From positions 1 through 41,314 of the forward strand of contig CACAXU010000006.1 of NCBI GenBank assembly GCA_902536515.1: a stretch of DNA of 41,314 bases, given 5' to 3'. A program made the translations under genes and the position numbers. This DNA comes from an uncultured Litorivicinus sp. (GTDB lineage: Bacteria; Pseudomonadota; Gammaproteobacteria; Pseudomonadales; Litorivicinaceae). Below, piece by piece: positions 9,138 through 40,472 of the stretch (position 1 is the first letter of the stretch; each line of letters starts with the position of its first letter). The notes under the pieces were generated by a model. The model was not told the origin of the DNA. It saw nothing but the letters and a program-made list of their open reading frames with translations, and ran no database searches.

Positions 9138-9153
9138 TGGCATGATGCTTGCT
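9138..9153 (+). promoter_or_regulatory. Sigma54 promoter for flrC
   Basis: TGGCAT (9138-9143) and TTGCT (9149-9153) with exact GG-N10-GC spacing, 38 bases before the flrC ATG. This implies that FleQ plus sigma54 drives flrC and probably the fliE operon behind it. Confidence 0.85.
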
Positions 9154-9191
9154 GGACACGAGCGTATTCCAATGTGAGCAGGTAATTGACA

Positions 9192-17045: not shown

Positions 17046-18335
17046 ATGCCTGCGGGATTAAATCTTCCAACAAATATCAGTCTGAAAACCGCTTCTGACT
17101 CTGGAAGTCCAGAGATGGAGGGGCATTCAGTATCCTCAGGAGTTGCAAAAGATGGTTCTGGATTTGCGAATGTCATGAGCAAATTCTCTTCTGAGACAAC
17201 CAATATCGGCAAATCATTGCCGGAGGACAGGGTTGTGATGGCCAAAAATCAGCAACTCCAAGATCACAGTGATCTACTTCGAGAAGTCGCAGAGTCAATG
17301 ACGATGCCAATCACGGGAGAGATTAAGCTGGTTACTGGTAAGACCCAGGTTTCTGAAGAATCTTTGTTGGAATTTATGAATGAGCAGGGATTATCGCGAT
17401 CAGAAATAGTCGCAGTTTTGTCGAATGCTGAGATCAGTCGAGTCATTGAGCCACAAACGGAAATGGGAATCTTAACTACGGGTGATTGGTTGCAGACAAA
17501 AGTAAAGGTGGAAAGTCCCGTCGGTGATAAGGTGATTGAAACTTCAGAAGCGGTACAGGTGAACACATCAGCACTAGTGCTTAAAGAGCTATTAGAGACG
17601 CAAATGAAGACGCGGCTGGGTCAGACAAAGCCGTCTCACATTGTAGAGATCATTGCCAGTAAGGCCGCGATTCAGCAACTGATAAATAGTGCGAGCCAAC
17701 ATGAGGCTGTCACAGAGCCAGTCTATGATTTATTCGAATCAATAAGTTTGGGTCGTTCCAGTGGTGATTCCGAGACATCTTCTCAAAATCACCGAGATCC
17801 TAGCTCATTATTTGCAACATTCGCCCGCGCGTCCACCGAGACTGCGATGACTCAATCCGAAATGAAGGATTTCCGTTCGTTTCTTGCCGATCATTTACGA
17901 CGCGCAGAAACCGTTCAGCAATTGACTGATCGGTTGGGAGTCTTTGTCGCGAAGCAAGTGACAGCGCAGATGAGTCAAGGTAGGTGGAGTATTGACTTGA
18001 CCTTGCATCCAGCTGAGCTTGGCAGTATTAAAGTGGATATGGAAATGACAGAGCGTGGGCTTGAGGCCACGTTCCGAGCCAGCCAGGGGGTGACCCGTGA
18101 CCTATTGATGGAATCCATGCCTCGTTTGAAACAGTGGTTTGAAGAAGGTGGCATCAATGTTGCTTACTCTGGATTATCGCAAGATTCAGGAACGAATCAG
18201 TCAACAAGCGACGAGCAGCCCAATAAAACTGCGCAGTCGACAAACGAAATGGCATCGACAGAAGAGTCTGGCGAGCCAGTAGAGACAAATGAAGTGACGG
18301 GACTCGATCCCGGACGATTGGACATTCGAGTGTAA
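17046..18335 (+). CDS. fliK: Flagellar hook-length control protein FliK
   Basis: The 429-residue protein has a variable serine/threonine-rich N-terminal ruler part and the conserved C-terminal switch domain at about residues 295-385: VFVAKQVTAQMSQGRWSI, then DLTLHPAELGSIKVDMEM and LEATFRASQGVTRDLLMESM with PRLKQWFEEGGINV. The LHPAELG motif is the family hallmark. FliK is secreted, measures hook length and signals FlhB to switch substrate class. A second FliK-like gene lies at 35533-37185. The fliK gene has its own dual promoter after a 59-base gap. Confidence 0.93.
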   Translation: MPAGLNLPTNISLKTASDSGSPEMEGHSVSSGVAKDGSGFANVMSKFSSETTNIGKSLPEDRVVMAKNQQLQDHSDLLREVAESMTMPITGEIKLVTGKTQVSEESLLEFMNEQGLSRSEIVAVLSNAEISRVIEPQTEMGILTTGDWLQTKVKVESPVGDKVIETSEAVQVNTSALVLKELLETQMKTRLGQTKPSHIVEIIASKAAIQQLINSASQHEAVTEPVYDLFESISLGRSSGDSETSSQNHRDPSSLFATFARASTETAMTQSEMKDFRSFLADHLRRAETVQQLTDRLGVFVAKQVTAQMSQGRWSIDLTLHPAELGSIKVDMEMTERGLEATFRASQGVTRDLLMESMPRLKQWFEEGGINVAYSGLSQDSGTNQSTSDEQPNKTAQSTNEMASTEESGEPVETNEVTGLDPGRLDIRV

Positions 18336-20685: not shown

Positions 20686-20701
20686 TGGCATTTTATTTGC
20701 T
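20686..20701 (+). promoter_or_regulatory. Sigma54 promoter for fliPQR-flhB
   Basis: TGGCAT (20686-20691) and TTGCT (20697-20701) with exact GG-N10-GC spacing, in the 131-base gap between fliO and fliP. It lies about 70 bases before the fliP ATG. It splits what is one operon in many relatives. Confidence 0.88.
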
Positions 20702-21851: not shown

Positions 21852-22631
21852 TTGGAGCTTTTTGTCGCTGATTTGATTGAACGGTTCTATACGGCTTTGT
21901 GGCCGTTTCTCCGGATCGGCGCAATGTTAGTTGCTGTTCCGATCTTATCGATCGACGCTGTGACTGTCAGGATTCGAGTTTTCCTCACGTTATTGTTGAC
22001 GATTTTGGTCTATCCCTTGGTGGATTGGCCGGTCATTGATCCTGTTTCGGCCGTGGGACTGAGTGAGATTTTCAATCAAATACTCATCGGTTTAGTAATG
22101 GGATTCTTCCTCCAAATTGTAACAGCAGCTGTCGTTCTCGCTGGGCAAGCGATCTCCAACTCAATGGGACTCGCAATGGCGACCATGGTTGATCCGAGCA
22201 TGGGAAACGTTCCTTTGGTCTCTCAGTTTATGTTGATCTTGGCGACACTGATATTCTTGGGGGTGGGCGGTCATATGCTGCTCATCGGCATCTTACTGCG
22301 CAGTTTTGAGACCTATCCCGTAGGTCTGGCATTCATTGGCCAAAGTACATATGGAACACTGATTGAATGGTGCGCAATGATTTTTGTTGGCGGGGTTTTA
22401 CTCGCCTTGCCAATTATGGTCGCGCTATTACTCGTGAATATTGGAGTTGGCGTGATTGCCCGTGCCGCACCGAGCCTCAACATTTTTGCAATTGGTTTTC
22501 CGGTATTTTTTATGACCGGTTATGCTGTTTTGATTTTATCTTTAGCTGGCATTGGCTCTCGAATGCAATGGCTATGGATGGAAGGTGTTGACCAAGTGAA
22601 GAACTTTGTCTTGGTACCGGGGGTGCTATAA
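21852..22631 (+). CDS. fliR: Flagellar export gate protein FliR
   Basis: It starts with TTG at 21852, with TAGGAG seven bases upstream; no ATG fits the N-terminus. The 259-residue membrane protein shows the FliR pattern: FLRIGAMLVAVPILSIDAV, FFLQIVTAAVVLAGQAISNSMGLAMA, VDPSMGNVPLVSQF and NIGVGVIARAAPSLNIFAIGFPV. FliR is the single-copy gate subunit. Its stop overlaps the flhB ATG (TAATG). Confidence 0.96.
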   Translation: MELFVADLIERFYTALWPFLRIGAMLVAVPILSIDAVTVRIRVFLTLLLTILVYPLVDWPVIDPVSAVGLSEIFNQILIGLVMGFFLQIVTAAVVLAGQAISNSMGLAMATMVDPSMGNVPLVSQFMLILATLIFLGVGGHMLLIGILLRSFETYPVGLAFIGQSTYGTLIEWCAMIFVGGVLLALPIMVALLLVNIGVGVIARAAPSLNIFAIGFPVFFMTGYAVLILSLAGIGSRMQWLWMEGVDQVKNFVLVPGVL

Positions 22632-23782
22632 TGGCTGAAGATACTCCAGACGACGATCAGAAGACCGAAGAGCCCACCGCCCGGCGGTTGCAAAAAGCCC
22701 GCGAGGACGGGCAGGTTCCGCGATCGCAAGAACTTGGGACTGCGGCCGTTATGATTAGTTCGATGGCTTTTTTGTATTTATCAGGTGGGTGGTTGCTTGG
22801 ACACCTATCACAGTTGTTCGCGGCGGGTTTTGTTATTGAGCGTCGCGATATTTTCTCTCCTTACGTCGGCCTAATGCATTTTCGGGATATCGGTCGAGAT
22901 GGTTTTATACTATTTATTCCATTGCTTCTCTTAACTTTTGTGGTCGCTATCCTCTCTTCATCAGCGATGGGTGGTTTGAATTGGTCCTGGAAGGCAACAG
23001 CCCCAAAAGCCAGCAAGTTGAATCCGTTGAATGGGTTGAAGCGGATGTTTGGCTTGCGCTCTTTAGTCGAATTGGTCAAATCCATTTTGAAATTTTCGTT
23101 CGTGGCAGCCGTACTTACCTATATGGTTTACGACTTTTCTGATGAGTTGATTGTGTTGTCCGCGATGAGTTTTGAGCCGGCAATGGAAGCGGCTGGGCAT
23201 ATAGTGGGACTCACCGCAGTTCTAGTGACCGTTACATTGGTGCTCATTGCAATGATCGATGTACCGTTTCAAAGCTTTGAATTCACCAAACGTATGCGAA
23301 TGACCAAACAAGAGGTCAAGGACGAGTTCAAAGATGTTGAGGGTCGGCCAGAAGTTAAAGCGCAGATCCGTCGAAAGCAGCGAGAGATGGCTGAATTACG
23401 AATGATGGATGCTGTTAAAGAAGCCGATGTTGTGATTACAAACCCAGAACATTTTGCAGTCGCTTTGGTTTATGATCCTGAATCAGATAGTGCTCCCATT
23501 GTGGTTGCGAAGGGGCTTGATCATGTTGCGTTGCGAATACGAAATAAAGCGAAAGAGCACGGAGTTGTACAAGTTGAGATTCCACCTCTGGCCCGTGCGC
23601 TTTATTTCACCACTGATCTCGATCAAGCAATCCCAGAGGATCTGTATTACGCGGTGGCTCAGGTGATTGCCTATGTCTTCAGTCTCGCCAGTTTGCGTCG
23701 TGATGGTCGAACAGGTCAGGTGCCGAATCCGGAGATCCCGGAACAATATCGCTTTGATACCGACGGTAATCTAAGCGACTGA
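22631..23782 (+). CDS. flhB: Flagellar export switch protein FlhB
   Basis: The 383-residue protein starts EDTPDDDQKTEEPTARRLQKAREDGQVPRSQEL, the standard FlhB N-terminus. Four membrane helices follow, then the cytoplasmic domain with KRMRMTKQEVKDEFKDVEGRPEVKAQIR. The self-cleavage site reads TNPEHFAVAL rather than the common NPTHYAVAL; the essential Asn-Pro and the His are kept. FlhB sits on the gate and, after cleavage, switches from rod/hook to filament export. It is followed by three unrecognised genes instead of flhA. Confidence 0.96.
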   Translation: MAEDTPDDDQKTEEPTARRLQKAREDGQVPRSQELGTAAVMISSMAFLYLSGGWLLGHLSQLFAAGFVIERRDIFSPYVGLMHFRDIGRDGFILFIPLLLLTFVVAILSSSAMGGLNWSWKATAPKASKLNPLNGLKRMFGLRSLVELVKSILKFSFVAAVLTYMVYDFSDELIVLSAMSFEPAMEAAGHIVGLTAVLVTVTLVLIAMIDVPFQSFEFTKRMRMTKQEVKDEFKDVEGRPEVKAQIRRKQREMAELRMMDAVKEADVVITNPEHFAVALVYDPESDSAPIVVAKGLDHVALRIRNKAKEHGVVQVEIPPLARALYFTTDLDQAIPEDLYYAVAQVIAYVFSLASLRRDGRTGQVPNPEIPEQYRFDTDGNLSD

Positions 23783-23793
23783 GAGGGAGTGTG

Positions 23794-25437
23794 ATGCAAG
23801 AATCGCAAGACATGCCGCCAAATTTATTATTCGGAGAAGCCGGAGAGATTTTCTTTCGAGAAAGTGACAATAGTCGGATGAATCGATTATTTGAGACCGT
23901 CGTCAACGATGGCCTTCATCTCCTCATGACGAGTCAACTCAATGGGCCTGTCGATCACTACGGAAAACTTTTCCTGAATCGGTTGAAGATGCGCTCGGGC
24001 CTCGCTGTCGAGACGTTCATGCCAGTTAGTACAGACGTCCTGATTGCGCGATTTAACTCGATGCTGGGTGACATCTCCGTCGAGGAAGCTAGAGATGACA
24101 AGGCTCCAATGCCAGGTCGTGTCATCGTAGTGAACGATTTACGTGCAATTGATGGGGAAAACCTCTCACTGCTGATGCGTCTCATTTCTGATTTTCCGAG
24201 CCTTAATGTGCGGTTGGTGTTTTTGGCGGACCAGATCCCAAAAGATATGGAGCGGATACTCGAGCGTCTTGGCTCCCGATTGGTTCGGTGGGATGTGGTG
24301 CCACCATCGCCCGATGAGCAAATGAAGTTACGTAAAGAATCAATGCAAATTGGGCTCGAGTTTCAGGTTGAACGCGTGCTAACCCGGATTAATCAATCAG
24401 TGGTAGATCAGCTAGAACCCAGTCTTGATTTTGACGATGGGGAGCCGTCGCTCCAGTTGGACGCTAATCGCGCCCTCGAATCCGGTACTGAGGCGGGAAA
24501 GCGCGAAGCTGAAGACTTGAAAGCATTGTTTGAGGAGGACGAGGATCCGCCTCGATCAAAGGGTCGTTTTCGCATCATTCTAATGTTATTGGTGCTGTGC
24601 ATTGTTGGAGTTGTCGGCGCAGCGACTGTAAATCCAGACATGGGCAGGCAGCTTAACCGTCTGCTTGTGTTGATTGGGGTGGATGAATCATTCTTTGACC
24701 ACAAAGAAGAGGAACTTAGTGTCGTCGACGCCGCTTATGACACTGACTCTGCCAAAATACCGGTAGAAACAAAGATTCAGCCGTTGCTTGAAGATCCCAT
24801 TGAGAGCAATCAGCCCACAACGACAGGGCCTGAGATCAATGACAGGCTGAATGTAGCGACAGAAATTGCAACGGCAGCGATAACTTCCGATATGCAGGAA
24901 GAAGCACCGGCCAGCCAGCCGACGACCGGCCTCCCAGAAATCCCTCAGAGCACTGATCCTCTGGTAACGAATGAGGAATCCACCCAAGTTGAGAGAACTG
25001 TCGAGGACCAGTCGCCCAATTCGGAGGAGCAGGTCGCATTGGCTGACCTAGTTTCTGATCAAGTGACTTCAGATCCTTTGGTTCCGGCTGCCTCGAGTGA
25101 AGTTCAAGACTCACCCGAAGCTTCGGGAAATTACGCGAACCAAAACCCTTTGGTCGCGCGCGTCGGCAATGCGAGTCCCAACAGTCAGTTCGTTCAGCAT
25201 ATTGTGCTCGCATCAGCCGCACGTGCTGAAGAATGGCTTAGCACGCAGGACGGGCTGGATCGAGCAATCATAGTCCCTGTTTCGATCAATAATGCTCGGC
25301 GATTTGCTGTGGTGAGTGGGCCATTCGAAACGCGTACTGAGGTCCAGGATTATATTCAAGGAATGGACCAAACAGCCGATTACTGGGTCAGAACAGCAAG
25401 ATCTTTGCAAAGAATTGCGTTAATTGGGGATGAATGA
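23794..25437 (+). CDS. DamX-like membrane protein: degenerate ATPase domain, one helix, C-terminal SPOR domain
   Basis: I use the ATG at 23794 after GAGGGAG; a GTG precedes it. The 547-residue protein has four parts. Residues 30-175 resemble the AAA domain of DamX/ExeA-type proteins (GRVIVVNDLRAIDGENLSLL, then VRLVFLADQIP), but the P-loop position reads GPVDHYGKLFL and the Walker B lacks its glutamate, so ATP hydrolysis is unlikely. One membrane helix follows at about 260-280, and then a long acidic, proline/threonine-rich periplasmic linker. Residues 465-530 form a SPOR-like domain (QFVQHIVLASAARAEEWL and RFAVVSGPFETRTEVQDYI), the type that binds denuded peptidoglycan at septa and poles. It follows flhB by eight bases and is probably cotranscribed. 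Function in the flagellum is inferred from position only. Confidence 0.75.
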   Translation: MQESQDMPPNLLFGEAGEIFFRESDNSRMNRLFETVVNDGLHLLMTSQLNGPVDHYGKLFLNRLKMRSGLAVETFMPVSTDVLIARFNSMLGDISVEEARDDKAPMPGRVIVVNDLRAIDGENLSLLMRLISDFPSLNVRLVFLADQIPKDMERILERLGSRLVRWDVVPPSPDEQMKLRKESMQIGLEFQVERVLTRINQSVVDQLEPSLDFDDGEPSLQLDANRALESGTEAGKREAEDLKALFEEDEDPPRSKGRFRIILMLLVLCIVGVVGAATVNPDMGRQLNRLLVLIGVDESFFDHKEEELSVVDAAYDTDSAKIPVETKIQPLLEDPIESNQPTTTGPEINDRLNVATEIATAAITSDMQEEAPASQPTTGLPEIPQSTDPLVTNEESTQVERTVEDQSPNSEEQVALADLVSDQVTSDPLVPAASSEVQDSPEASGNYANQNPLVARVGNASPNSQFVQHIVLASAARAEEWLSTQDGLDRAIIVPVSINNARRFAVVSGPFETRTEVQDYIQGMDQTADYWVRTARSLQRIALIGDE

Positions 25438-25874
25438 TGATTGGTGATGAGTTATTTCGTCAGGACAGCGGTGATCAATCCGAGACCGCAGTCGTTGGCA
25501 ACGGGCCATCATCAAAGCAGAAATCGTCGCGCACGCGCGGTCCTAGTGTTGGGGTCGATCAATATAACGATCGATTGGTCCGTCTGATGGATGATTCAAC
25601 ACTTGGGACAGCGCATCTCGGTGGTCAGAGACAACGTACGTCGAAAGACTTGAAGGCTGAGCTTCAGGCGGTAGCTGAGTTGACTCCTGTGAGTTGGAGT
25701 CTCAAACCCTGGAAGCCAGGGTCGCTGAGTCGCGATCTTCAGATTCGTATTCAAGACGCAGAGTCCGCTGTTGAAAAAATGCAAACAACGATTGACGGTC
25801 TATCAGAGCAAGTCGCCGTATTATGCGGCGAAGTTAATTTAGCCGATTCAGATGATGACTCGGAAGAGGATTAG
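25434..25874 (+). CDS. Unrecognised 146-residue protein in the flhB operon
   Basis: The ATG overlaps the stop of the DamX-like gene (ATGA), with GGGGATGA upstream. The N-terminal 45 residues look disordered (polar, S/K/G-rich), the middle is basic with KDLKAELQAVAELTP and LKPWKPGSLSRDLQIRI, and residues 105-132 form a short coiled coil (AESAVEKMQTTIDGLSEQV) before an acidic end. No signal peptide or membrane helix is seen, so it is probably cytoplasmic. I recognise no family. Tight coupling to both neighbours suggests that the three products work together. Confidence 0.7.
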   Translation: MMIGDELFRQDSGDQSETAVVGNGPSSKQKSSRTRGPSVGVDQYNDRLVRLMDDSTLGTAHLGGQRQRTSKDLKAELQAVAELTPVSWSLKPWKPGSLSRDLQIRIQDAESAVEKMQTTIDGLSEQVAVLCGEVNLADSDDDSEED

Positions 25875-25885
25875 GAGGTAATACA

Positions 25886-26995
25886 ATGAGTGGCGAAGAT
25901 CCAGAAGACAAAAAGGTTGAGAATCCCGCAGCTGATGATGACTCCATTGACGATGACTCTTTAGATGACGTATTTGAAGTTGATGAGACCTTTAACGTTG
26001 ACGGTGATTTTGAGGTTGATCCGGAGGCTGCTGAAGCCATCACTGCGATGGCCGAAGCATCAGACGTCTCAGTTGAAGGAACAGCGAGTCAACAGCCAAC
26101 TCTCGATGCGACACTGTCGGACTCGATACGCTTAGCCGATGAGCTTGTGAAAACACGGATCGAGAAAATTCATGAAGCAGGTGAGAAGTCAGTCTCACAG
26201 GCTGTCGAATCGATGGAAACGCTCATCGGTTCAGTATTGGATGCGACTGAGGCGGCAACACGTGCATCGGCAGCAGCGAGTACGTCGACCACTAATCTTG
26301 TGAAGTCTGCTGGTCGTTTGACCCAAACAGCTGACCGCAGTTCGCGAATTTCCACAATCGTGCTATCCGTTGGCGGTGCGATGCTATTTATATCTGTTGC
26401 GGTGTTCGGGTTTATGGCTGCACAGCTCGCACAGCGAACAAGTGAGCTCGAATCAATGGTGATGGCAGTCGGTAAGCGGGTTGTCGAAATGAATGTGGCG
26501 TTCGGGGAGTTCACAGCTGTCACTGACTCGCTCGATCAGCTACGACTGACTCAGGAAACGTTTCGTGACAGCGTATATCAATTGACAGAGCGAGTGAATG
26601 GGATGACAGAAACACTCCAAGCTGTCAGAAGTGAAGTTCCTGTGACCACAGCTGAATCCGTTGGACGGCAAAGTGAAGTCTTCACTGCTCGCGTATCAGA
26701 TGTTGAGGGCCAGATTCAAGCGCAACAGAAAATAACAGGAGACCTTGCAAAATCGATGCAAGGGCTTGCAGGTCAAATGAGCTCTTTACGTAAGCAGATC
26801 GCAAGCGTATCTGAACTAAATAAGGATGTTGAGGCATTGGTTACACTGCAACGAGAGCGATATTACGAGTTATTACAGGCTCAAGCCAATGCAACCAAGG
26901 CACAAGGCTCTTCGGCTGAGCCCCAAGCTGATCAAGTAATCATCCGGTATCCGAACCCTGATGCTCCATTACCGCTCCCGGAGCAGGTAAATTAA
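25886..26995 (+). CDS. Unrecognised membrane protein with long periplasmic coiled coil
   Basis: AGGAGG sits eight bases before the ATG. The 369-residue protein has a very acidic N-terminus (residues 1-50), a cytoplasmic alanine/serine-rich helical region, one membrane helix at about residues 156-178 (STIVLSVGGAMLFISVAVFGFMAA), then a coiled coil from about 185 to 345 with heptad-like leucine/valine spacing (SELESMVMAVGKRVVEM, LAGQMSSLRKQIASV) and a proline-rich end. The topology recalls chemoreceptors or spanning cell-envelope proteins, but no methyl-accepting hairpin motif is present. Function is unknown. Its stop overlaps the stop of the convergent minus-strand gene. Confidence 0.72.
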   Translation: MSGEDPEDKKVENPAADDDSIDDDSLDDVFEVDETFNVDGDFEVDPEAAEAITAMAEASDVSVEGTASQQPTLDATLSDSIRLADELVKTRIEKIHEAGEKSVSQAVESMETLIGSVLDATEAATRASAAASTSTTNLVKSAGRLTQTADRSSRISTIVLSVGGAMLFISVAVFGFMAAQLAQRTSELESMVMAVGKRVVEMNVAFGEFTAVTDSLDQLRLTQETFRDSVYQLTERVNGMTETLQAVRSEVPVTTAESVGRQSEVFTARVSDVEGQIQAQQKITGDLAKSMQGLAGQMSSLRKQIASVSELNKDVEALVTLQRERYYELLQAQANATKAQGSSAEPQADQVIIRYPNPDAPLPLPEQVN

Positions 26996-27696
26996 GAGCT
27001 AATTTTATCCGCGTTTTCGGGCTCTGTTTCAGAGCTCGGAGATGGTAATTGAAGCGTGTCATCATCGGTCAGCTCATCGTCTAAATCATCATCTATGATC
27101 GACTCGTCTTCTGAAATGGAACGGGTCATGGACAGCATTGAATCGATAAGTGTTGTCGGGACATCCATACCGACTTTTGTAAAAATCTCGTCAACGATTT
27201 CACTTGTCTCTTTTTTGAGCTTTACACTTTTCTCCGGATTGGATTCTAGTTCTTGACCAATCTCATACAATCGGGAAGCATCGGCGAACGGAATATAGGA
27301 CTCAACAGAACCTCGCAGCATCTGTATCCGTAAGACGGCTTTTGCATCAGATCGCTCGCCATTTCTCGCGTCGAAACGACCTTCTTCGAGTAACGACTCA
27401 AGATGCTTTGATAAAACAAACTCATAACGAGGACGCTTTTTGCCGAGGTCTGCCGGATCGACATTGATATCTGGATTCTCTAGCTCGTCTCCGCACATTG
27501 CTTGCCAAAGATCTTTCCCTGAGAGCTCTCCAAACGGATTTGGACCAAAATTGACGTGTTCGGCCAATTTTTCGCCAGTCACCTTCGGATTGATCCCAAG
27601 CAATGTCTCGAACACAGTAATGCGCTCGCTCAAATAGATCACAAAGATTGCAACTGCCGCGAGGATGATAATCAGAACGCCTAGTACCCACTCCAT
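26992..27696 (-). CDS. Unrecognised single-helix membrane protein, last gene of the flhA operon
   Basis: The 234-residue protein begins MEWVLGVLIIILAAVAIFVIYL, an N-terminal anchor, followed by a soluble, probably cytoplasmic domain (NPKVTGEKLAEHVNFGPNPF, then YEFVLSKHLESLLEEGRFDA) and a strongly acidic tail from about residue 190. GGGAG precedes the ATG and it lies 14 bases after the 176-residue gene. It ends tail-to-tail with, and overlapping by four bases, the coiled-coil gene of the opposite operon. I recognise no family. Confidence 0.7.
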   Translation of the reverse strand: MEWVLGVLIIILAAVAIFVIYLSERITVFETLLGINPKVTGEKLAEHVNFGPNPFGELSGKDLWQAMCGDELENPDINVDPADLGKKRPRYEFVLSKHLESLLEEGRFDARNGERSDAKAVLRIQMLRGSVESYIPFADASRLYEIGQELESNPEKSVKLKKETSEIVDEIFTKVGMDVPTTLIDSMLSMTRSISEDESIIDDDLDDELTDDDTLQLPSPSSETEPENADKISS

Positions 27697-27710
27697 ATCA
27701 GGCTCCCTCG

Positions 27711-28241
27711 CTAGAGGTTATCGTCACCGTCATCGGCCAATGCGGCGATCTCTCCATCCACATCGACGCCTTCAGCAGTCAATTGCTCCCTCAGAAATTC
27801 GAGGGCGATCAGCGGCTTGTCGAGCTTCAGTTCGATGGCGACCGCGTTCGAAACCTTTTGGACGTAATCAATCGCTTTTGGCCCTGTGATTTCGACACTT
27901 TGATACTGCATTCCATATTTAAAAACGAGCTGGGCATACTCCTCTGGAAGGTACGACCAGACTTCGCCGCTTGCGGACACCAATTTCATGTACTCATTTG
28001 TTGTTGGTACCGCCGGGGCCTTTTTCCCCTGTGAAATATTCAACATCACGGTTTCGTTGTATTTTTCCGCTTTTTTTGCTCCATCAACGAATAGCTTATC
28101 GATGTGTGAACGAGCCCGTAATCCGATTCGCATGCGATACGCATGCTCTTTGCGGGTATCTCCTTTCAGCCCAACAGCTTTGTCATATTCCTTACGCGCA
28201 TCTAGTTTTAAATTTTTATCACTGGGACCAAATAAAGCCAT
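27711..28241 (-). CDS. Unrecognised 176-residue cytoplasmic protein downstream of fliA
   Basis: The ATG follows fliA by 12 bases with AGGAAAA upstream. The product has no signal or membrane segment. It opens with a charged helical region (KNLKLDARKEYDKAVGLKGDTRKEH, basic), then SHIDKLFVDGAKKAEKYNETV, SGEVWSYLPEEYAQLVFKYGM and a C-terminal helical part ending in an acidic DDGDDNL. In Vibrio and Pseudomonas this slot after fliA holds cheY and cheZ; this sequence is neither, since no receiver-domain aspartate motif or CheZ helix is present. Function is unknown. Confidence 0.7.
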   Translation of the reverse strand: MALFGPSDKNLKLDARKEYDKAVGLKGDTRKEHAYRMRIGLRARSHIDKLFVDGAKKAEKYNETVMLNISQGKKAPAVPTTNEYMKLVSASGEVWSYLPEEYAQLVFKYGMQYQSVEITGPKAIDYVQKVSNAVAIELKLDKPLIALEFLREQLTAEGVDVDGEIAALADDGDDNL

Positions 28242-28253
28242 AAGAATATTTTC

Positions 28254-28967
28254 CTAGTCAGTTGCCAAAGCCATCATTTTACGAAGCTTCAGGACATTCG
28301 CCGAGAGTAACTGACTGACACGCGATTCGCTAATATCAAGAACAGCTCCGATCTCTTTGAGATTCATTTCTTCATTGTAATACAGTGCCATGATGATCTG
28401 ATCACGTTCAGATAATTTTGCGATACTGTCAGTCAGCATCGATATCATCATTGAGTCACTGACTTCTTCCTCAGGCTCGGAACCTTGTTGTGCTGGTGTG
28501 TTGAGCATCTCATCTTCAGCCGCTTCAGAATCAACCATCATCATCTGGTGTGCATGTGATCGCTCTTTCTGGTACTCCGATACGTCTTTACCCATGAATT
28601 CGGCTAATTCTGCTTGAGTGGGCGTTCGGCCAAGGCTGGTTGCTAATTCTTGAGTTGCCTCGTTTGTATCGCGAATATGGGAGATCGCAGACCTCGGCAA
28701 TACTGAGATCCGTCGAACTTCATCGAGAATCGCTCCTCGAATTCGTGTTTTAGCGAAAATTTCAAATTCCACACCACGCGATACATCGAAGTTTTGAGAG
28801 GCTTCAATTAAGCCGACCATGCCCACTTGTATCAGTTCATCGACATCCATCACCTGGGGAATGCGGGCCTTTAAATGCAGAGCGGTCCGTTTCACTAGGC
28901 CAACATGCTTTAAGATGGGATCTTGGCCTTGTTTTTGCACTTGTGTGTAAAGATCAAGATCAGCCAT
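28254..28967 (-). CDS. fliA: Flagellar sigma factor FliA (sigma28)
   Basis: I start at the ATG at 28967, one base after the flhG stop, giving MADLDLYTQVQ and 237 residues; the frame extends to 29006 inside flhG. Region 2 is clear (DVDELIQVGMVGLIEASQNFD and FEIFAKTRIRGAILDEVRR), as is region 4 (LSERDQIIMALYYNEEMNLKEIG and ISESRVSQLLSANVLKLRKM). It directs RNA polymerase to the late promoters listed here (motAB, fliS, flgM and others). The gene for its anti-sigma factor FlgM is at 38447-38737. Confidence 0.96.
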   Translation of the reverse strand: MADLDLYTQVQKQGQDPILKHVGLVKRTALHLKARIPQVMDVDELIQVGMVGLIEASQNFDVSRGVEFEIFAKTRIRGAILDEVRRISVLPRSAISHIRDTNEATQELATSLGRTPTQAELAEFMGKDVSEYQKERSHAHQMMMVDSEAAEDEMLNTPAQQGSEPEEEVSDSMMISMLTDSIAKLSERDQIIMALYYNEEMNLKEIGAVLDISESRVSQLLSANVLKLRKMMALATD

Positions 28968-28968
28968 G

Positions 28969-29781
28969 TCAGACCGCTGCCTTAGTGGATACCAAACGCT
29001 CAACAAAAAATTGAAGGCCTCCGTTGATCACATTTATCTCAAGAGATTTGATCTCTTTAGCCAACCGCACAAAGTTTTGAGAGGCTATGGCGCCCGGCGA
29101 ATGAACAATCACCGGAGCATACTTTTTGGATGCTTCGAAAATGAGATCGTCACTTTGGATGCTATACAAATACTCTGTATGGAGATTCAGAAATTTAACG
29201 CATACCGCATTCAGGCGGTGGTATAAAAGCTGGCCTGAGCGTTGATCTGGCACACCATTCGGTATCAGTCCAATGTTGGTATATTTTTGCTCGTTAACCA
29301 GAACTTTGATGATCCCGTAGGCATCTGCAATCGAACTCGGCTCGTCACGTACGACCACCAAAGTTTGGTGGCAGGCTTTGAGAAATGACAATACCGTGGG
29401 AGAGATGCCAGCCGCTACGTCAACAATCAGGTAATCCAAGGGCGCTTTGAACTCTGAAAAGAGCTGAATGATCCCACGTAATTCAGCCTCCGATAAATCT
29501 GCCATTCGCCCGAGGCCGGAGGCACCGGGCACGACATAAATATCAGACGGTCCTCTGACGACGATTTCATTGAATGTCTTTTCGCCCGAAATCACATGCC
29601 CAAAGTTGAATTCAGGGCGAATTCCTAAAGCCAGTTGCACGTTTGCAAGGCCAAGATCACCATCGAATAGCATCACGCGATTCCCGGCTTGTGCGAGCGC
29701 AACAGCCAAATTAGAGGAGACGGTGGTTTTCCCGACACCCCCTTTGCCGCTTGCAATGCCGATGATCTTTAGTGCACTCAT
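28969..29781 (-). CDS. flhG: Flagellar number regulator FlhG/FleN (MinD-like ATPase)
   Basis: The 270-residue protein carries the deviant Walker A GIASGKGGVGKTTVSSNLA (residues 8-26), LFDGDLGLANVQLALG, and the Walker B-type DYLIVDVAAGISPTVLSF followed by VVVRDEPSSIADAYGIIKVL. These are the marks of FlhG/FleN. It limits flagellar number by antagonising FlhF and, in Pseudomonas and Vibrio, by restraining FleQ/FlrA. It lies between flhF and fliA, as in other polar flagellates. Since FleQ here lacks its N-terminal domain, how FlhG would restrain it is open. Confidence 0.96.
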   Translation of the reverse strand: MSALKIIGIASGKGGVGKTTVSSNLAVALAQAGNRVMLFDGDLGLANVQLALGIRPEFNFGHVISGEKTFNEIVVRGPSDIYVVPGASGLGRMADLSEAELRGIIQLFSEFKAPLDYLIVDVAAGISPTVLSFLKACHQTLVVVRDEPSSIADAYGIIKVLVNEQKYTNIGLIPNGVPDQRSGQLLYHRLNAVCVKFLNLHTEYLYSIQSDDLIFEASKKYAPVIVHSPGAIASQNFVRLAKEIKSLEINVINGGLQFFVERLVSTKAAV

Positions 29782-29802: not shown

Positions 29803-31068
29803 CTAATTTGTGTTCTGCGCGGACTTGGGACTGCGATCATTGGGATCAGCTCGCAAACCGGCCAAGTAGTCGAGTGTAGTCGTCTCTTCACCTATTTGTC
29901 GACCGCTTTCAGGATGTTCGACGGCATCGTTTAGGTCTTGAGAATCCGTCAAATTCAAGTATTGAATTGCGCTCCTGAGAAGCCGACCAGCATCAATCAA
30001 CTCTACCGGTTGGCTGAAATTTCCATCAGTCGTTTTAACCCAGAGATGCAGTTGAGATTGTTGGGAAAGCGCATCAATTAGTACCCATATGTTGGGTCGA
30101 GGCGACATTTCGGCAATGTTTACGCTATCCCAGCCAAGGCTGTGATTCAGTAATTTTTCACAGCTCGAGCGAGAGATTTCGGCATTAACAAGCAGATGCA
30201 TCAGGGCGTCAGGAACAACAGACTGAATGTCTTGGTAAGTTTGATCGATGTTTACACCGGGGGTATCGATGAGGATGCACTGATCATCCGGCAATTCTCG
30301 AACGATCGTTTCAAGCATCTGGCGATCTGCACAGCGAAAACACCTAATTCCAAGGGTAGAGCAGATCAGTTGAATTTGATTCCACGCACCAAGTTTTTGG
30401 TCGGCGAAACTAACGATCGTCAATGAGTCTCTCCGTGAGGTCTTAACAAATTGTGTTGCAAGTTTGCCAATCATCGTTGTTTTGCCAGCACCTGTTAGTC
30501 CGAAGATTGCATGGACTCCGCTGAGGTTTTCGGGTGTCTGATCGCTAACTAGTAAAGATGATGAGAAGAGATCGTGAATAAGGCTCTCAGCTTCTTTGGG
30601 ATTGGTTATATTGTTGATTGCGTCGAGAATCAGCAGTTTCGAGGTCGATGGCAGTTCATATTGATTAACCTGAGTCTGAAGACGGTTATCAGTCTCCGTT
30701 TTGTGTTGGTGCCATGCTGATGCACTTCTTAATTGTGCGAGTTCCTTTTTCAATAGCCGCATTTCTGCTTTGAATAGATTCACGATTTCTTGTGCGCGAT
30801 CAGTCGACATAGTCGGCTCTTGCTTTTGTTCACCGTGCAATACCGCTGAAAAGCGTGGTGCCTGTTTCTGTTCACTTTGAACTTCAACTAACAAGTCACC
30901 TGTCTGGTCGATCAGGTTTGGATCAGGTGCGATGTCAACCGCGACGATCATTTCAATCTTACGGTTAACTTTTTGGCTAGAAACTACAAGAGCGTCGGGA
31001 CCAAATTCCTGGCGAACCAGCTCCATCGCGTGTTTGCTGTCTTTACCGATAATGCGTTTCAGTTCCAT
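29803..31068 (-). CDS. flhF: Flagellar placement GTPase FlhF with altered GTP-binding motifs
   Basis: I use the ATG at 31068 behind AAGGA; a GTG precedes it. The 421-residue protein has the FlhF N-terminus (GKDSKHAMELVRQEFGPDALVVSS), a linker, and an SRP-type GTPase domain. G1 is intact (GLTGAGKTT, about residues 190-198). The segment that should read DTYRIGA-EQL is SFADQKLGAWNQI, G3 is DTPG, and the G4 motif TKLDE is not present: the matching place reads NIAEMSPRPNIWVL. FlhF marks the pole for flagellar assembly. The lost G4 residues suggest weak or absent guanine specificity. Confidence 0.92.
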   Translation of the reverse strand: MELKRIIGKDSKHAMELVRQEFGPDALVVSSQKVNRKIEMIVAVDIAPDPNLIDQTGDLLVEVQSEQKQAPRFSAVLHGEQKQEPTMSTDRAQEIVNLFKAEMRLLKKELAQLRSASAWHQHKTETDNRLQTQVNQYELPSTSKLLILDAINNITNPKEAESLIHDLFSSSLLVSDQTPENLSGVHAIFGLTGAGKTTMIGKLATQFVKTSRRDSLTIVSFADQKLGAWNQIQLICSTLGIRCFRCADRQMLETIVRELPDDQCILIDTPGVNIDQTYQDIQSVVPDALMHLLVNAEISRSSCEKLLNHSLGWDSVNIAEMSPRPNIWVLIDALSQQSQLHLWVKTTDGNFSQPVELIDAGRLLRSAIQYLNLTDSQDLNDAVEHPESGRQIGEETTTLDYLAGLRADPNDRSPKSAQNTN

Positions 31069-31079
31069 CACTTAATTCC

Positions 31080-33191
31080 TTATCTTGATTCTTCGATCTG
31101 CGCGTTGATGGTGGCCACCACATTGACAGATTGGTCTTCTGGGATTTCTGTGTAAGACAAAACCGTCAAATCTGGAATCCGTGGTCGCACCAGGTTAGAC
31201 AACCAAGGACGGATAATCGGTGATACAACTAGAATGGCTGGCTGCCCTTGATCCTCAATTGTTTGGACCTCGGCACGCATGGATTTGAAAAGCGCTTCAG
31301 CAAGTTCTGGATCAATTGTCAGGGTCTTACTTTGCTGCGACTGCTGAACGGCATTGTGCAGCATTTGCTCAAGCTGAGGTTCCAGTGTCATGACGGGCAT
31401 ATCATCTGAAATATCCACTAAGCTTTGGACGATCATCCGGCCGAGTTTTGGTCTAATGAGTGCCGTTAGATCGTCGGGATCTTGAGTTTTTCCACCCTCT
31501 TCATTCAGAACCTCCAAAATGGTCCGCATGTCACGAATTGGCACGCCATCGCGTAATAGGTTTTGCAGTGTTCGAGTGATCATCGCGAGACTCAGCTTCG
31601 CGGGAACAAGATTTTCCACTAGTTTGGGAGATCGCTCGGCTGTTTTATCGAGGATTTGTTGAACTTCATCATGACCGAGCAACTCCGATGCTGTTCCATA
31701 AAGAAGACTATTGAGATGCGTAGCGATCGCTGTTGTAGGATCGACTACGGTGTACCCCAGTGTCCGCGCATGATCGCGTTGCGAGGGCTCGATCCAGACC
31801 GCATCCAAGCCAAACGCAGGCTCCTTGGTCGCGATACCTTCGATTGGGACCGTAATGTGGCCGGGGTTGATTGCTAATTCTTTTCCACTATAACTCTGGC
31901 CTCGACCACGGAGTACGCCATTGATAAGCAGATGGTATGTGTTCGGCTCAAGATCGAGGTTGTCACGAATCCGAACTGGCTGAATTAAAAAGCCAAGTTC
32001 TGTTGAGAGTTTTTTGCGTACCCCTTTGACCCGACTGAGCAGTTGACCTCCGGTTTCTGTATTTACCAGTGGAATTAGACCGTACCCGATCTCAAGGGAG
32101 ATTAAATCGACTTGGCTGACGTCTTCCCACTGCACATCCTGCTCATCGATAGGGCTGGTAGTGCCTGTTGACGCATCGGATGCAGCTTGTTCAGTGTCTT
32201 CACCAGCCCTCAATTGATAGACGATTATTCCGATTCCAGCTGAAACAGCGGCAAGTGAGATAAATACGGTTGATGGCATCCCGGGGATAACACCGAGGAG
32301 GAGCAAAATCGCTGCTGTCACAAACAATGCAGTCGGATTAGCGAGTTGCGTTGTTGTCTGCTCTGTCATCGACTGATTAGTCGTAACGCGAGTCACAATA
32401 ATTGCTGTCGCCAATGACAGGATTAAAGAGGGGATCTGTGCAACTAATCCATCACCGATGGTGAGTAGGACATAAATCTCTCCCGCATCTGTAAAGGACA
32501 TATCGTATTGGGTGATTCCAATTGTTAACCCACCGATGATGTTAATAATCAATATCAGTAGTCCCGCGATCGCGTCACCGCGAACAAATTTGCTGGCACC
32601 ATCCATCGAACCAAAGAAGTCGGATTCTTGGGCGATTTCAGCGCGTCGTAATTTTGCCTCTTCTTGATCAATCACCCCGCTATTGAGATCTGCATCAATT
32701 GCCATTTGCTTACCAGGCATTGCATCAAGCGTAAATCGTGCAATTACTTCAGAGACTCGACCAGCACCCTTCGTCACAACGATAAAATTAATGATCATTA
32801 AGATTCCGAAGATGATGAATCCAACCAAATAATTACCGCTGATAACAAACTTACCGAAGGCCTCAATGACCTTGCCTGCCGCATCGGTCCCCTCGTGACC
32901 ATTCACTAAAACAATCCGCGTCGATGCGACGTTGAGGGATAGACGTAGCATCGTCGCGAAAAGAAGGACAGCTGGGAACGAAGAAAAATCGAGCGGTTTC
33001 TCGGTGTGAATACTGATCATAATCACGACCAGTGCAATCATGATGTTTAGGGTGAAAAGAATATCAAGCAGCACCGTCGGTAGCGGCAAGATCAGCATTG
33101 CGATAATCAGAAGAACAAGCGCAGGGATTCCCATAGACTTGAAATCCACGTTGGGAATCCGTTGACGAAAATCTGACAGCGCAAGTTGCAC
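31080..33191 (-). CDS. flhA: Flagellar export gate protein FlhA
   Basis: It starts with GTG at 33191 behind TAGGAAT. The 703-residue protein has eight N-terminal membrane helices beginning with IPALVLLIIAMLILPLPTVLLDI, the conserved FHIPEP-family loop with GKQMAIDADLNSGVIDQEEAKLRR and ESDFFGSMDGASKFVRGDAIAG, then the cytoplasmic ring domain ending PWLSNLVRPRIPDLTVLSYTEIPEDQSVNVV. It heads the minus-strand operon flhA-flhF-flhG-fliA plus two unknown genes. In close relatives flhA follows flhB on the same strand, so this block is rearranged. Confidence 0.97.
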   Translation of the reverse strand: MQLALSDFRQRIPNVDFKSMGIPALVLLIIAMLILPLPTVLLDILFTLNIMIALVVIMISIHTEKPLDFSSFPAVLLFATMLRLSLNVASTRIVLVNGHEGTDAAGKVIEAFGKFVISGNYLVGFIIFGILMIINFIVVTKGAGRVSEVIARFTLDAMPGKQMAIDADLNSGVIDQEEAKLRRAEIAQESDFFGSMDGASKFVRGDAIAGLLILIINIIGGLTIGITQYDMSFTDAGEIYVLLTIGDGLVAQIPSLILSLATAIIVTRVTTNQSMTEQTTTQLANPTALFVTAAILLLLGVIPGMPSTVFISLAAVSAGIGIIVYQLRAGEDTEQAASDASTGTTSPIDEQDVQWEDVSQVDLISLEIGYGLIPLVNTETGGQLLSRVKGVRKKLSTELGFLIQPVRIRDNLDLEPNTYHLLINGVLRGRGQSYSGKELAINPGHITVPIEGIATKEPAFGLDAVWIEPSQRDHARTLGYTVVDPTTAIATHLNSLLYGTASELLGHDEVQQILDKTAERSPKLVENLVPAKLSLAMITRTLQNLLRDGVPIRDMRTILEVLNEEGGKTQDPDDLTALIRPKLGRMIVQSLVDISDDMPVMTLEPQLEQMLHNAVQQSQQSKTLTIDPELAEALFKSMRAEVQTIEDQGQPAILVVSPIIRPWLSNLVRPRIPDLTVLSYTEIPEDQSVNVVATINAQIEESR

Positions 33192-33261: not shown

Positions 33262-33277
33262 AGCAAGAGCAGTGCCA
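33262..33277 (-). promoter_or_regulatory. Sigma54 promoter for the flhA operon
   Basis: On the minus strand, TGGCAC (33277-33272) and TTGCT (33266-33262) with exact GG-N10-GC spacing, a full consensus match, 70 bases before the flhA start. Confidence 0.9.
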
Positions 33278-35046: not shown

Positions 35047-35058
35047 TAGGGATTGATT

Positions 35059-35532
35059 ATGTTGCGAATCGCAAGTGTTCTTTTGATATGTGTGACATGT
35101 TCTGTCAATGCTGCAGACATGTCGGTCGATCAGGCGGTGTCGCGGCTTCTGAAAGATATTCAACAAGAGGTTGAGGTTCTCAAGGTTCCCGTCCCGTCGA
35201 AGGATGAAGTCAACCAAGAAGGACAAGCTGGCAAATCTGGCGGGCAGATTGTAACCAATGGTACGCATCGTGTCCGACGCGGTGAAACCCTGGATATGGT
35301 GATCCGAAAAGTCGTACCAAATTCGGCAATACAACCACGAATCTTGCGTCAGGCATTTGTACGAGCGAATCCACATGCGTTTCGGCGTGGTAATCCCAAC
35401 TGGTTATATGCAGGCGCGGTGCTTCACGTTCCGGATATCGAGCATTTGCGTCAGGTTATTTTTAAGAATTCACCCAATCGGCTTAAGAAGAATATTAGTG
35501 ACGAGAAAGCTGGCTGGGTAAGGTTTCCATAG
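35059..35532 (+). CDS. Exported LysM/FimV-like protein
   Basis: I choose the ATG at 35059, with TAGGG seven bases upstream; a TTG lies two codons earlier. The 157-residue protein has a signal peptide (LRIASVLLICVTCSVNA) and a C-terminal LysM/FimV-type fold from about residue 70: HRVRRGETLDMVIRKVVPN, ILRQAFVRANPHAFRRGNPNWLYAGAVLHVPD. LysM domains bind peptidoglycan. Position after flgT and before the FliK-like gene suggests a periplasmic role in the flagellar ring region, but this is inference. Confidence 0.8.
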   Translation: MLRIASVLLICVTCSVNAADMSVDQAVSRLLKDIQQEVEVLKVPVPSKDEVNQEGQAGKSGGQIVTNGTHRVRRGETLDMVIRKVVPNSAIQPRILRQAFVRANPHAFRRGNPNWLYAGAVLHVPDIEHLRQVIFKNSPNRLKKNISDEKAGWVRFP

Positions 35533-37185
35533 ATGGTATCGCCGATCTCGAATCATCTGAGATCGGAGGTTGGACCCATTAGTCTCGAGCGGGTTCTGCA
35601 TGCAGGCTATGGGAGCCGATTGGCAATCAGTGGGGATAACGCTCAATATATACTGAGCTATAACACGGCTACAAAATCGTTGGTCCTGACGGTGTCAACG
35701 CCGCAAGCAAATCAAGTCATTCCTGTATCAGCATCGCAAGATTTGGTGTCTTTGGTGATCAAATATGGGTCTCTACGACTGGTGACAGCTGAGGCCGATC
35801 CAACTAATGGTGTGATTTTTAAGGGTGTGATACCAACGCCTCAGCCGACACAGGTCGTCCTGACTTACCGGGTCGAAATGAGCGACATAAAGGCTCAATC
35901 AGCTCATCGAATAAGCCGGGACGTAGTCAAAGAAAGACATCCATTATTCACGGCGATCAGTCGGATCGATGCGCGCCAAGTGAATGGCGCTTTATCCCAG
36001 CGACTACAGCCTTTGATGTTCGACCAAACGGTCTTGATTTCGCCTGAGCCCAATCATTTAGAAAACTCCGCTCAACTGGTCCGTTCGGTGGTAGCATCGT
36101 TGCCAACGATCGAAGGGAATAAAAGCATGCTAATCCCAGATATCAATCCGGCAGTGCCGCGACCTATTGGTCCAGATGCGTTACCAAATAACGTACCGAT
36201 TTCTCAGCCAATCGCTGCCGAGCTTGGGCTGAAACCTGGGCAGGTCGTTCAAGCCTTGGTCGCAAACACTGGGGATAAAATGGCCTTGCAATTAAAAAAT
36301 GGTGAAATTCCATTGCCCTCGAACCTTCGACTTCCAGAGGGACAGGTTCAATTGCGAGTGATGCAGGGTCCCCAGGGTCTTCTATTGAGTTTTTCTGGAG
36401 CACAGACAGTGCCTGCTAGCCAAGCTGCAGCAGTTGGCGGCGTTTCTGCTGCTCTCGCCAATATTTTGGCGAGACCTGCTGGGAAGTCGCAGATCCAAAG
36501 TTTGTTTTCGCCACGAGCCATGGAGTCTCTTCTTTCCGGTCAAGGGCTTGATCGCGAGGCTCGGGTGCTACAGAACAACCGTCTTGACTCAAATACGCTG
36601 AACGCTCAAGCGATTGCTCGGGCTGTGCAATTTGGTGGATTGAACACTGAAAGAGCCGTGCTCGATGGAGTTTCTTTGTCAGCTCAGATGTTGAAACCTT
36701 GGTTACGGCAGATTTTGCGGCTCTTGCCTGCGCAGTCAGAAATCTCATCGAGGTTCTCTGATCTGGTTGGGGACGTTGAGCGTTTCCAACTCGATGCGAT
36801 GCCAAATACTGGTAATCGAGATCACATCGGGATGTCGGCGCTTTTGTTATTCAGGGATCAACTACCCGTGGAACTTATTTTTGAGCGTTTTCCCTCGGCG
36901 GACGATGATGGCGCTACGATATGGGTGATTAATTTGCATACGTCGCTCGAGCTTTTGGGTGAAATTTGGATGAAGTCGACTTTTTCAAGAAAAGATGTCG
37001 ATTTTGTCATGTGGGCCGTTGAGCCGAAAACAGCAAATCTTGCAAAGGAAGCGTCGATCGATTTGAAAGAAGCGTTTTCTGAGATTGATCTTACTGTCCG
37101 GACCATTCAGATATTGAATTCTGAGCGAACGAACTTCCCTGAACGCGGTAAGCCAATGCATTCGAATTTGGATTTGCAGGCATGA
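35533..37185 (+). CDS. Second FliK-like protein
   Basis: The ATG follows the LysM gene's stop directly, with AAGG nine bases upstream. The 550-residue protein has a long variable N-terminal part rich in Q, S and V, and a C-terminal domain (about residues 430-530) with the fold pattern of the FliK C-terminus: ALLLFRDQLPVELIF, TIWVINLHTSLELLGEIWMK, DVDFVMWAVEPKTANL and DLKEAFSEIDLTVRTIQIL. The PAELG motif is not kept. A FliK-like gene directly before an FhlX gene is a known pairing in gammaproteobacteria. The role is probably in export or hook-related control, distinct from the main FliK. Confidence 0.75.
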   Translation: MVSPISNHLRSEVGPISLERVLHAGYGSRLAISGDNAQYILSYNTATKSLVLTVSTPQANQVIPVSASQDLVSLVIKYGSLRLVTAEADPTNGVIFKGVIPTPQPTQVVLTYRVEMSDIKAQSAHRISRDVVKERHPLFTAISRIDARQVNGALSQRLQPLMFDQTVLISPEPNHLENSAQLVRSVVASLPTIEGNKSMLIPDINPAVPRPIGPDALPNNVPISQPIAAELGLKPGQVVQALVANTGDKMALQLKNGEIPLPSNLRLPEGQVQLRVMQGPQGLLLSFSGAQTVPASQAAAVGGVSAALANILARPAGKSQIQSLFSPRAMESLLSGQGLDREARVLQNNRLDSNTLNAQAIARAVQFGGLNTERAVLDGVSLSAQMLKPWLRQILRLLPAQSEISSRFSDLVGDVERFQLDAMPNTGNRDHIGMSALLLFRDQLPVELIFERFPSADDDGATIWVINLHTSLELLGEIWMKSTFSRKDVDFVMWAVEPKTANLAKEASIDLKEAFSEIDLTVRTIQILNSERTNFPERGKPMHSNLDLQA

Positions 37186-40006: not shown

Positions 40007-40022
40007 TGGCACACCGATTGCT
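40007..40022 (+). promoter_or_regulatory. Sigma54 promoter for flgBCD
   Basis: TGGCAC (40007-40012) and TTGCT (40018-40022) with exact GG-N10-GC spacing, a full consensus match, 66 bases before the flgB ATG. Confidence 0.92.
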
Positions 40023-40088: not shown

Positions 40089-40472
40089 ATGAAATTGCTT
40101 GAAAACCCATTTGGCATCCATGAGAAAGCGCTGTCTGTCAGAAACAAGCGCATGGAATTAATTTCTGCAAATATCGCGAACGCAGATACTCCACACTTTC
40201 GGGCAAAAGATCTTGATTTTAAGAAAGTACTCGCGAATGCGAATCCGAGTCCGATGGCTGCAACGAACGTTCGACACTTTGACACCGGAGAGGTTGAAGA
40301 TCCCCACGGTATCGTCTTCCGGACTCCTTACAACACCGCGGTCGATGGTAACACTGTCGAAATCAACGTCGAGCAAGGCAAGTATGGTGAGGCAGCAGTA
40401 CAGTATCAAGCAACACTTCAATTTCTAGAGAATCGAATTTCTGGAATACGTAAATCGTTACGTGGTGAATAA
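40089..40472 (+). CDS. flgB: Flagellar proximal rod protein FlgB
   Basis: The 127-residue protein has the rod-protein N-terminal signature KRMELISANIANADTPHFRAKDLDFKKVL (ANIANADTP motif, about residues 25-33) and the C-terminal helix AAVQYQATLQFLENRISGIRKSL. FlgB joins FlgC, FlgF and FlgG in the rod and crosses the periplasm. AGAGG precedes the ATG. It is the first gene of the rod/hook operon, directly after a sigma54 promoter. Confidence 0.96.
   Translation: MKLLENPFGIHEKALSVRNKRMELISANIANADTPHFRAKDLDFKKVLANANPSPMAATNVRHFDTGEVEDPHGIVFRTPYNTAVDGNTVEINVEQGKYGEAAVQYQATLQFLENRISGIRKSLRGE

Follow-up and report, generated by a model that had tools for sequence, protein, structure and literature searches.

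The described systems closest to the genes considered here are FipA and HubP/FimV. According to the available part of PMC11620751, FipA is a membrane protein that is encoded behind the flhA-flhF-flhG-fliA-che operon and recruits FlhF, and the portion of PMC11236974 at hand states that it is present in all species that organise polar flagellation by FlhF/FlhG. The same portion describes FlhF as binding HubP through its GTPase domain and FliG through its N-terminus. Here we describe five open reading frames (ORFs), A to E, that fill positions 23794-28241 of a 41,314-nucleotide stretch of DNA from an uncultured Litorivicinus sp. (this whole stretch, contig C6 of a genome that is 60.8% complete, is called the window). 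They lie between flhB on the plus strand and fliA on the minus strand. The comparisons below indicate that they form an accessory module of a distinct flagellar type, and we tentatively propose that this module may act at the cell pole.

The flhB-fliA block and its flagellar linkage

The genes around the block, from left to right, are the following.

22631-23782, plus strand: flhB, last named gene of the rightward operon (Pfam Bac_export_2, 5.5e-123)
23791/23794-25437, plus strand: gene A, 548/547 amino acids (aa)
25434-25874, plus strand: gene B, 146 aa
25886-26995, plus strand: gene C, 369 aa
26992-27696, minus strand: gene D, 234 aa
27711-28241, minus strand: gene E, 176 aa, a soluble D/E-domain protein encoded directly downstream of fliA
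28254-28967, minus strand: fliA (sigma-28), from its first ATG, the open frame extending to a TTG at 29006 (NCBIfam FliA, over cut-off)
28969-29781, minus strand: flhG (MinD-like), by Pfam/NCBIfam
29803-31071, minus strand: flhF (NCBIfam TIGR03499 at 1.6e-37, yet below its cut-off), with a diverged G domain that lacks DGQxIPxD and TKxDE
31080-33191, minus strand: flhA, first gene of the leftward operon, within the module-linked FlhA clade

A sequence-only reading of the window had described five unrecognised genes, three after flhB and two after fliA, tightly spaced and ending tail to tail. The ORFs lie exactly so, with 4-base overlaps between A and B and, tail to tail, between C and D, and in profile scans no Pfam or NCBIfam match for any of A-E reached its curated cut-off. 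When the genes were compared with those of three near relatives, the ratios of nonsynonymous to synonymous substitution (dN/dS) were 0.03-0.22 for A-E and 0.045-0.070 for flhB, so we regard the five genes as real and under purifying selection; C, at 0.027-0.049, is constrained as strongly as flhB. Acidic residues (D+E) make up 16-21% of the five proteins. A phage or defence origin was considered and set aside: none of the block proteins had a PHROG match at E 0.001, which leaves a phage origin unsupported, and PADLOC returned three weak coiled-coil matches, to C only (best E 0.00055). Pfam also gave weak matches, which we attribute to chance or composition: B and C matched coiled-coil families, and E matched GCV_T (best E 0.0013, 3/18 members). 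A description of the module was not found in listings of the open-licence PubMed Central (PMC) literature on FipA/FlhF, Litoricola/OM252, SPOR, flhB-downstream, and transfer topics.

The window's genus, which we take to belong to the order Pseudomonadales in GTDB, is placed under Oceanospirillales by the NCBI taxonomy. It corresponds to the OM252 ("Litoricola") clade treated in the accessible part of PMC8269220. True E was found in 17 of its 22 genomes, the window's own included, and flhA also in 17; counted over the 18 genus genomes that show flagellar genes, E is present in 17. G013 carries E together with flhB and fliA on a contig that ends before flhA, and G009 lacks E and has part of flhA at one end of a 4.3 kb contig. 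Neither E nor flhA was seen in G002, G003, G010, and G018, two of which are less than 70% complete. The order flhB-A-B-C, converging on D-E-fliA, occupies one contig in 12 genus genomes besides the window; in four others (G006, G007, G015, and G017) this order is kept over whatever part the contigs cover, and the draft of G005 has breaks in flhB and A. The block is also present in the genome of HIMB30, presumably a cultured strain, among five relatives in Litoricola/Litorivicinus or unnamed Gammaproteobacteria records. G017 holds two C-D-E copies at the ends of different contigs (L035 C50 and L036 C5), reflecting a strain mixture or a duplication.

Beyond the genus, a first profile of D reached other families: at E<=0.1 it gave hits in 11/194 genomes of the order, of which one was weak. 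A wider profile, which includes and finds D2 (a relative of D described below), gave hits in 29/390 genomes of the order, all within the families f1, f39, f41, and f44 and within 6/142 genera; some of the 29 are unlinked D2 only, and G002, G003, and G009 have no D hit other than a weaker one of the D2 kind (the neighbourhood was read for G009 alone). Among 369 genomes drawn from the class, the D profile found one, the window's own. Outside the genus, 14 genomes have D, and in 13 of them it is part of a flagellar cluster. The window's gene order recurs in 6/6 genomes of f41. The f44 genomes have flhA-flhF-flhG-fliA-E-D in 4/4, with C convergent in 3/4 and A undetected (0/4). Of the four f39 genomes, three place A, C, and D after flhB on the same strand, and three have E behind fliA at another site; G217 gave no hit for E. 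The parts of the module are spread over three contigs in G375: D and C sit at the end of one, a weakly matching A comes after flhB on another, and E comes after fliA on the remaining one. Each of the four families has members with E immediately behind fliA, and in three of the families A comes after flhB. The B profile had no match outside the genus; the slot of B in f41 holds ORFs of 93-126 aa at 6/6 loci, four with ELF near the start.

The core of the module is thus D and E, mostly with C and usually with A, and it recurs in three further families of the same order. The suggestion of an accessory module is borne out by this co-inheritance with flagellar genes in four families, and the linkage kept in related genomes is the opposite of the scattering that would have spoken against it. 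The idea of a five-gene unit holds loosely: one domain is common to D and E, B is a short protein with little conservation, A went undetected in f44, and D and E both have unlinked relatives. We conclude that the block almost certainly belongs to the flagellum.

FlhA and RpoB histories of the module hosts

FlhA sequences were placed in a tree of 45 rows, and the 20 module-linked rows selected for it formed one side of a branch with support 100/99 and did so in all 200 bootstrap trees; a second tree of 34 rows, made without long branches, held its 14 module rows together at 100/100. The hosts were compared through one core gene, RpoB (39 genomes searched, 36 with a match, and 34 used after exclusion of the fragment G000 and of G035), and here none of the 200 bootstrap trees united the 13 module hosts. 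A single clade of module hosts was rejected by the approximately unbiased test on RpoB (log-likelihood 93.6 lower, p 1.4e-6). In G022, which belongs to the same family as the window, flhB and flhA form an ordinary tandem, and the FlhA fragment falls outside the module clade. G363 has two flagellar loci, one with the module-type fliA-E-D (C52; L112/L170) and one with an ordinary fliA-DUF2802 arrangement (C32; L133).

Because the FlhA clade conflicts with RpoB, and because G363 carries both kinds of locus, we conclude from these gene comparisons that the module marks a distinct flagellar type and not a lineage-specific insertion. The earlier description of the block as lineage-specific was accordingly abandoned: the flagellar type spans four families, and by RpoB its hosts are no clade. 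On the simplest reading, the flagellum and its module probably spread together by transfer; old paralogy followed by many losses is a possible alternative.

Predicted proteins and other genes of the window

Comparison of D with E by hhalign, using alignments that included D2 and the E relative E2, gave 95.9% (E 6e-9), and control pairs gave 0.1% and 6.1%, the latter over membrane spans only; an earlier comparison with narrow alignments had given 4.5% only. These values indicate that D and E share one new domain, for which Pfam has no family. The most hydrophobic stretch of D begins at residue 1-28 in 20/20 rows, and K/R are commoner after it than before. Because E has no predicted span and that of D is N-terminal, we take the shared domain to be cytoplasmic. 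An AlphaFold2 (AF2) model of E from five sequences was too poor to use, with a mean predicted local distance difference test score (pLDDT) of 45.

Relatives of both proteins occur away from flagella. D2 is found in the window's genus, with no flagellar neighbours at the two loci viewed (L071 9406-10119 and L072 8967-9608), where it adjoins genes that by eye look AlkB-like and amidotransferase-like. E2 is a weaker paralogue of E that is likewise unlinked to flagellar genes, and the E hit of G018 is E2 alone. At L027 8349-9693 and L028 7789-9177, E2 adjoins a gene of 271-275 aa with no Pfam match at E 0.1, which has the look of a putative uroporphyrinogen-III synthase.

Hydropathy, on which all membrane spans given here are based, predicted single spans in A (~256-280), C (~153-176), and D (~1-22) and none in B or E, in agreement with the sequence-only reading that at least three of the proteins are membrane-anchored. 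Gene A encodes a degenerate AAA+-like N-terminus (~12-184), the membrane span, an acidic/Pro-rich linker, and a weak SPOR-like C-terminus (~470-525). Its AF2 model had a mean pLDDT of 49.7 overall, with 10-residue blocks between 21 and 180 at means of 57-82. When residues ~12-184 of the model were searched with Foldseek, the best match had E 1.9e-4 and the 21 matches at E<=0.001 were mostly AAA+; VIA-align gave Z 9.4-10.9 with root-mean-square deviations of 3.0-7.1 over 130-168 residues (50 matches listed). As modelled, this part of A has an AAA+ fold, and no Walker A motif (GxxxxGK[ST]) occurs in the first 260 residues of any of 16 A rows. SPOR is absent among the VIA matches listed for A, a list that the AAA+-like part fills. 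In Pfam, SPOR (PF05036) matched the window's A at 14.7 bits against a cut-off of 21 (E 0.039) and 11 of 13 A family members at E<=0.1 (best 1.9e-5). No credible solved-structure match was obtained for the profiles of E, A, and D.

Like DamX-like and other SPOR proteins, A combines an N-terminal domain, one span, an acidic/Pro-rich linker, and a C-terminal SPOR-like domain; unlike them, it is linked to flagellar genes and its AAA+-like domain is without Walker A. Gene C, by alignments and hydropathy, has an acidic helical N-terminus, its single span, and then a long coiled coil. A and C have one span each and, judged by charge, large portions outside the cytoplasm. The product of B is short, soluble, and poorly conserved, save for an E-[LI]-F-R start within the genus.

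The placement of the block in two sigma54 operons, part of the same reading, is plausible by consensus. Two sites resemble the consensus and were judged by it only.

33262-33277, minus strand: sigma54-like site before flhA, 1 mismatch
20686-20701, plus strand: sigma54-like site before fliP, 2 mismatches

At up to 3 mismatches the window held 87 sigma54 matches, and shuffled sequences had a mean of 64.4, with 0/100 shuffles reaching 87. Further 1-mismatch sites lie at 9138-9153 (+), before a sigma54-activator ORF at 9186, and at 40007-40022 (+), before a rod-protein ORF at 40089. A clear FliK is encoded at 17046-18335 (2.3e-17), and 35533-37185 (+) encodes a second FliK-like protein (Flg_hook E 0.0018, below cut-off). 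The window contains no tRNA and no Rfam match at gathering score.

The FipA position and a proposed role of the module

A search of 42 genomes, G022 not among them, for DUF2802, the domain of FipA, gave matches at E<=0.001 in 14, and in 12 of these the match exceeded the curated cut-off. The 14 comprise 1/21 module genomes and 13/21 module-free flagellated genomes, and both matches under the cut-off belong to the latter group. The sole module genome with DUF2802 was G363, whose gene stands behind fliA of its other, ordinary locus, and in G046 the DUF2802 gene is likewise directly behind fliA. In the module genomes this slot behind fliA is filled by E-D in f1, f41, and f44 and by E alone in f39 (3/4 genomes). 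Like FipA, D is small, has an N-terminal span followed by a soluble domain, and is encoded behind flhA-flhF-flhG-fliA, with E between. It differs in not being a DUF2802 protein by Pfam or profile comparison, in coming with its soluble relative E and with A-C, and in that the FlhF encoded beside it has a diverged G domain. PF10975 (DUF2802) gave no Pfam hit for D or E, nor for 20 D and 18 E alignment members. With no kinship to DUF2802 detected by profile, D and E share the position and build of FipA and not membership of its family.

The FlhF proteins encoded with the module differ from the others. DGQxIPxD was found in 0/20 module-linked versus 15/18 other FlhF (one of the 20, L138, is a short ORF ending earlier), and TKxDE, with R allowed for K, is kept in 5/20 and 16/18, respectively; the module-free stretches L168 and L169 gave no FlhF and were left out of the rows. 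Mean identity between module-linked and other FlhF (8 and 17 rows) was 29% over the N-terminal motif and 19% from the P-loop on, the corresponding values being 46% and 36% among the others and 39% and 24% among the module-linked proteins. The N-terminal motif is recognisable in module-linked FlhF. Loss of the DQAxxLR motif, which the available part of PMC12826062 assigns to the FlhG enhancer helix, was tried as a mark of the module and was uninformative, the motif not being found before the P-loop in module-linked or other FlhG.

The HubP/FimV polar landmark was compared as well. A and C are single-span proteins with acidic stretches, and A pairs a domain of peptidoglycan-binding type with a domain across the membrane; in contrast to HubP/FimV, the domain of A is weakly SPOR-like and not LysM, and a separate FimV-core gene exists. 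No LysM or FimV match was obtained for A or C at E<=1 in Pfam and NCBIfam, nor for the 13 family members of A in Pfam. Elsewhere in the window, at 35053-35532 (+), a 159-aa ORF has a sub-threshold FimV-core/LysM-like match (36.2 bits) and stands beside weakly LPP20- and FlgT-like genes; short ORFs with similar sub-threshold FimV-core matches occur on flagellar contigs of many other module genomes.

Taking these comparisons together, we lean, at somewhat less than even confidence, towards an accessory module that places or anchors the basal body of this flagellar type at the pole via FlhF. A possible polar flagellum of the OM252 isolate LSUCC0096, described in the available part of PMC8269220, speaks in favour. 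The link to the flagellum is strong; the mechanism is what we infer. The SPOR domain of A would bind denuded septal peptidoglycan that becomes the new pole, where A and C would form a membrane-spanning scaffold. The cytoplasmic D/E domains would hold the diverged FlhF at this scaffold, as FipA and HubP/FimV hold ordinary FlhF, and FlhF-FliG would then be able to capture FliF and start the MS ring. A bolder version, which we consider unlikely as a whole, is a polar flagellum with its own pole-finding apparatus, in which the SPOR-anchored A/C scaffold reads new-pole peptidoglycan and D/E, as a new FlhF-binding domain, replaces FipA and part of the HubP/FimV route. With placement encoded inside the flagellar cluster, such a flagellum could move as a whole between families and work at once.

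Several observations weigh against pole placement. DUF2802 is missing as well from eight of the 21 flagellated genomes without the module, which leaves its absence with little weight by itself; these eight also fit badly with the statement of FipA in all such species in the part of PMC11236974 consulted, if their flagella are polar. D and E were not recovered as distant DUF2802 proteins, hhalign against 14 DUF2802 proteins giving 1.0% (D) and 0.1% (E). The FimV core is present in 42/42 genomes (39 over cut-off), and the FimV landmark is therefore not missing. The FlhF motifs were picked after the alignment had been seen and their rows are related, which makes the motif counts a description and not a test; moreover, with FipA absence, FlhF divergence, and the module all on one FlhA branch, the association amounts to about a single event. 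Reports of polar flagellation cover OM252 and none of f39, f41, and f44. C was not found in the module locus of G363. The window's A matches SPOR at a score under the Pfam cut-off, and the fact that A went undetected in f44 implies that a SPOR anchor is not essential everywhere. Finally, the D/E domain has other uses and is not confined to flagella: D2 and E2 are unlinked relatives within the genus, and the D profile also hit G002 and G003, neither of which has flhA.

The strongest alternative, which we nonetheless rate as somewhat unlikely, is a structural accessory of the mature motor or envelope, with A (through SPOR) and C as a peptidoglycan-anchored scaffold around the basal body or stators and D/E as its cytoplasmic part. 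Co-inheritance with one flagellar type, the flhB-like constraint on C, and the single spans and largely extracytoplasmic charge pattern of A and C are all consistent with such a scaffold, and further envelope parts are hinted at by LPP20- and FlgT-like matches in the window, which are weak and below cut-off; however, the genes adjoin flhB and flhA-flhF-flhG-fliA and not the motA-like gene at 4473, E is soluble, and A was not found in f44. An assembly or export checkpoint, in which expression or substrate switching would be timed by D/E through FliA, FlhG, or the export gate (FlhA/FlhB), draws on the position of E behind fliA in members of four families and of A after flhB in three, yet it leaves the SPOR-like, membrane-spanning A and C unexplained, and neither the five proteins nor, in Pfam, the D/E members have a listed match to a flagellar chaperone or anti-sigma family; we judge it improbable.

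The sequence-only reading had also remarked on the lack of chemotaxis genes, and this stood as far as tested: no CheW domain was found in the window's own incomplete genome or in six other genus genomes. CheW occurred in 25/42 genomes, comprising 4/21 module genomes (4 of the 6 from f41) versus 21/21 module-free flagellated genomes, flagellar and pilus chemosensory systems being pooled in these counts; the absence in the window is thus part of a wider pattern, CheW being missing in 17/21 module genomes. That the module replaces chemotactic control, setting speed, stopping, or reversal in flagella without Che, would suit this pattern but is very improbable, because CheW domains are present in those f41 genomes, the loss of Che may simply be shared history, and no receiver, PilZ, or other signalling domain is listed in Pfam or NCBIfam for the five window proteins.

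We therefore place pole placement through FlhF ahead of a motor or envelope scaffold. The earlier suggestion of a motor or polar accessory stands as to the accessory, and polar appears somewhat likelier than motor, given E-D in the FipA slot, the missing FipA, and the diverged FlhF. Of the 21 module genomes, whose flagellar loci encode FlhF/FlhG, 20 have no DUF2802, against the statement, in the portion of PMC11236974 seen, that FipA is found in all such species, and the module is a candidate for FipA's job. The FipA-less set includes the clade of the isolate with a possible polar flagellum (PMC8269220, in part). The conflict between FlhA and RpoB suggests that this flagellar type has moved between families with its accessories, and G363 holds both types.

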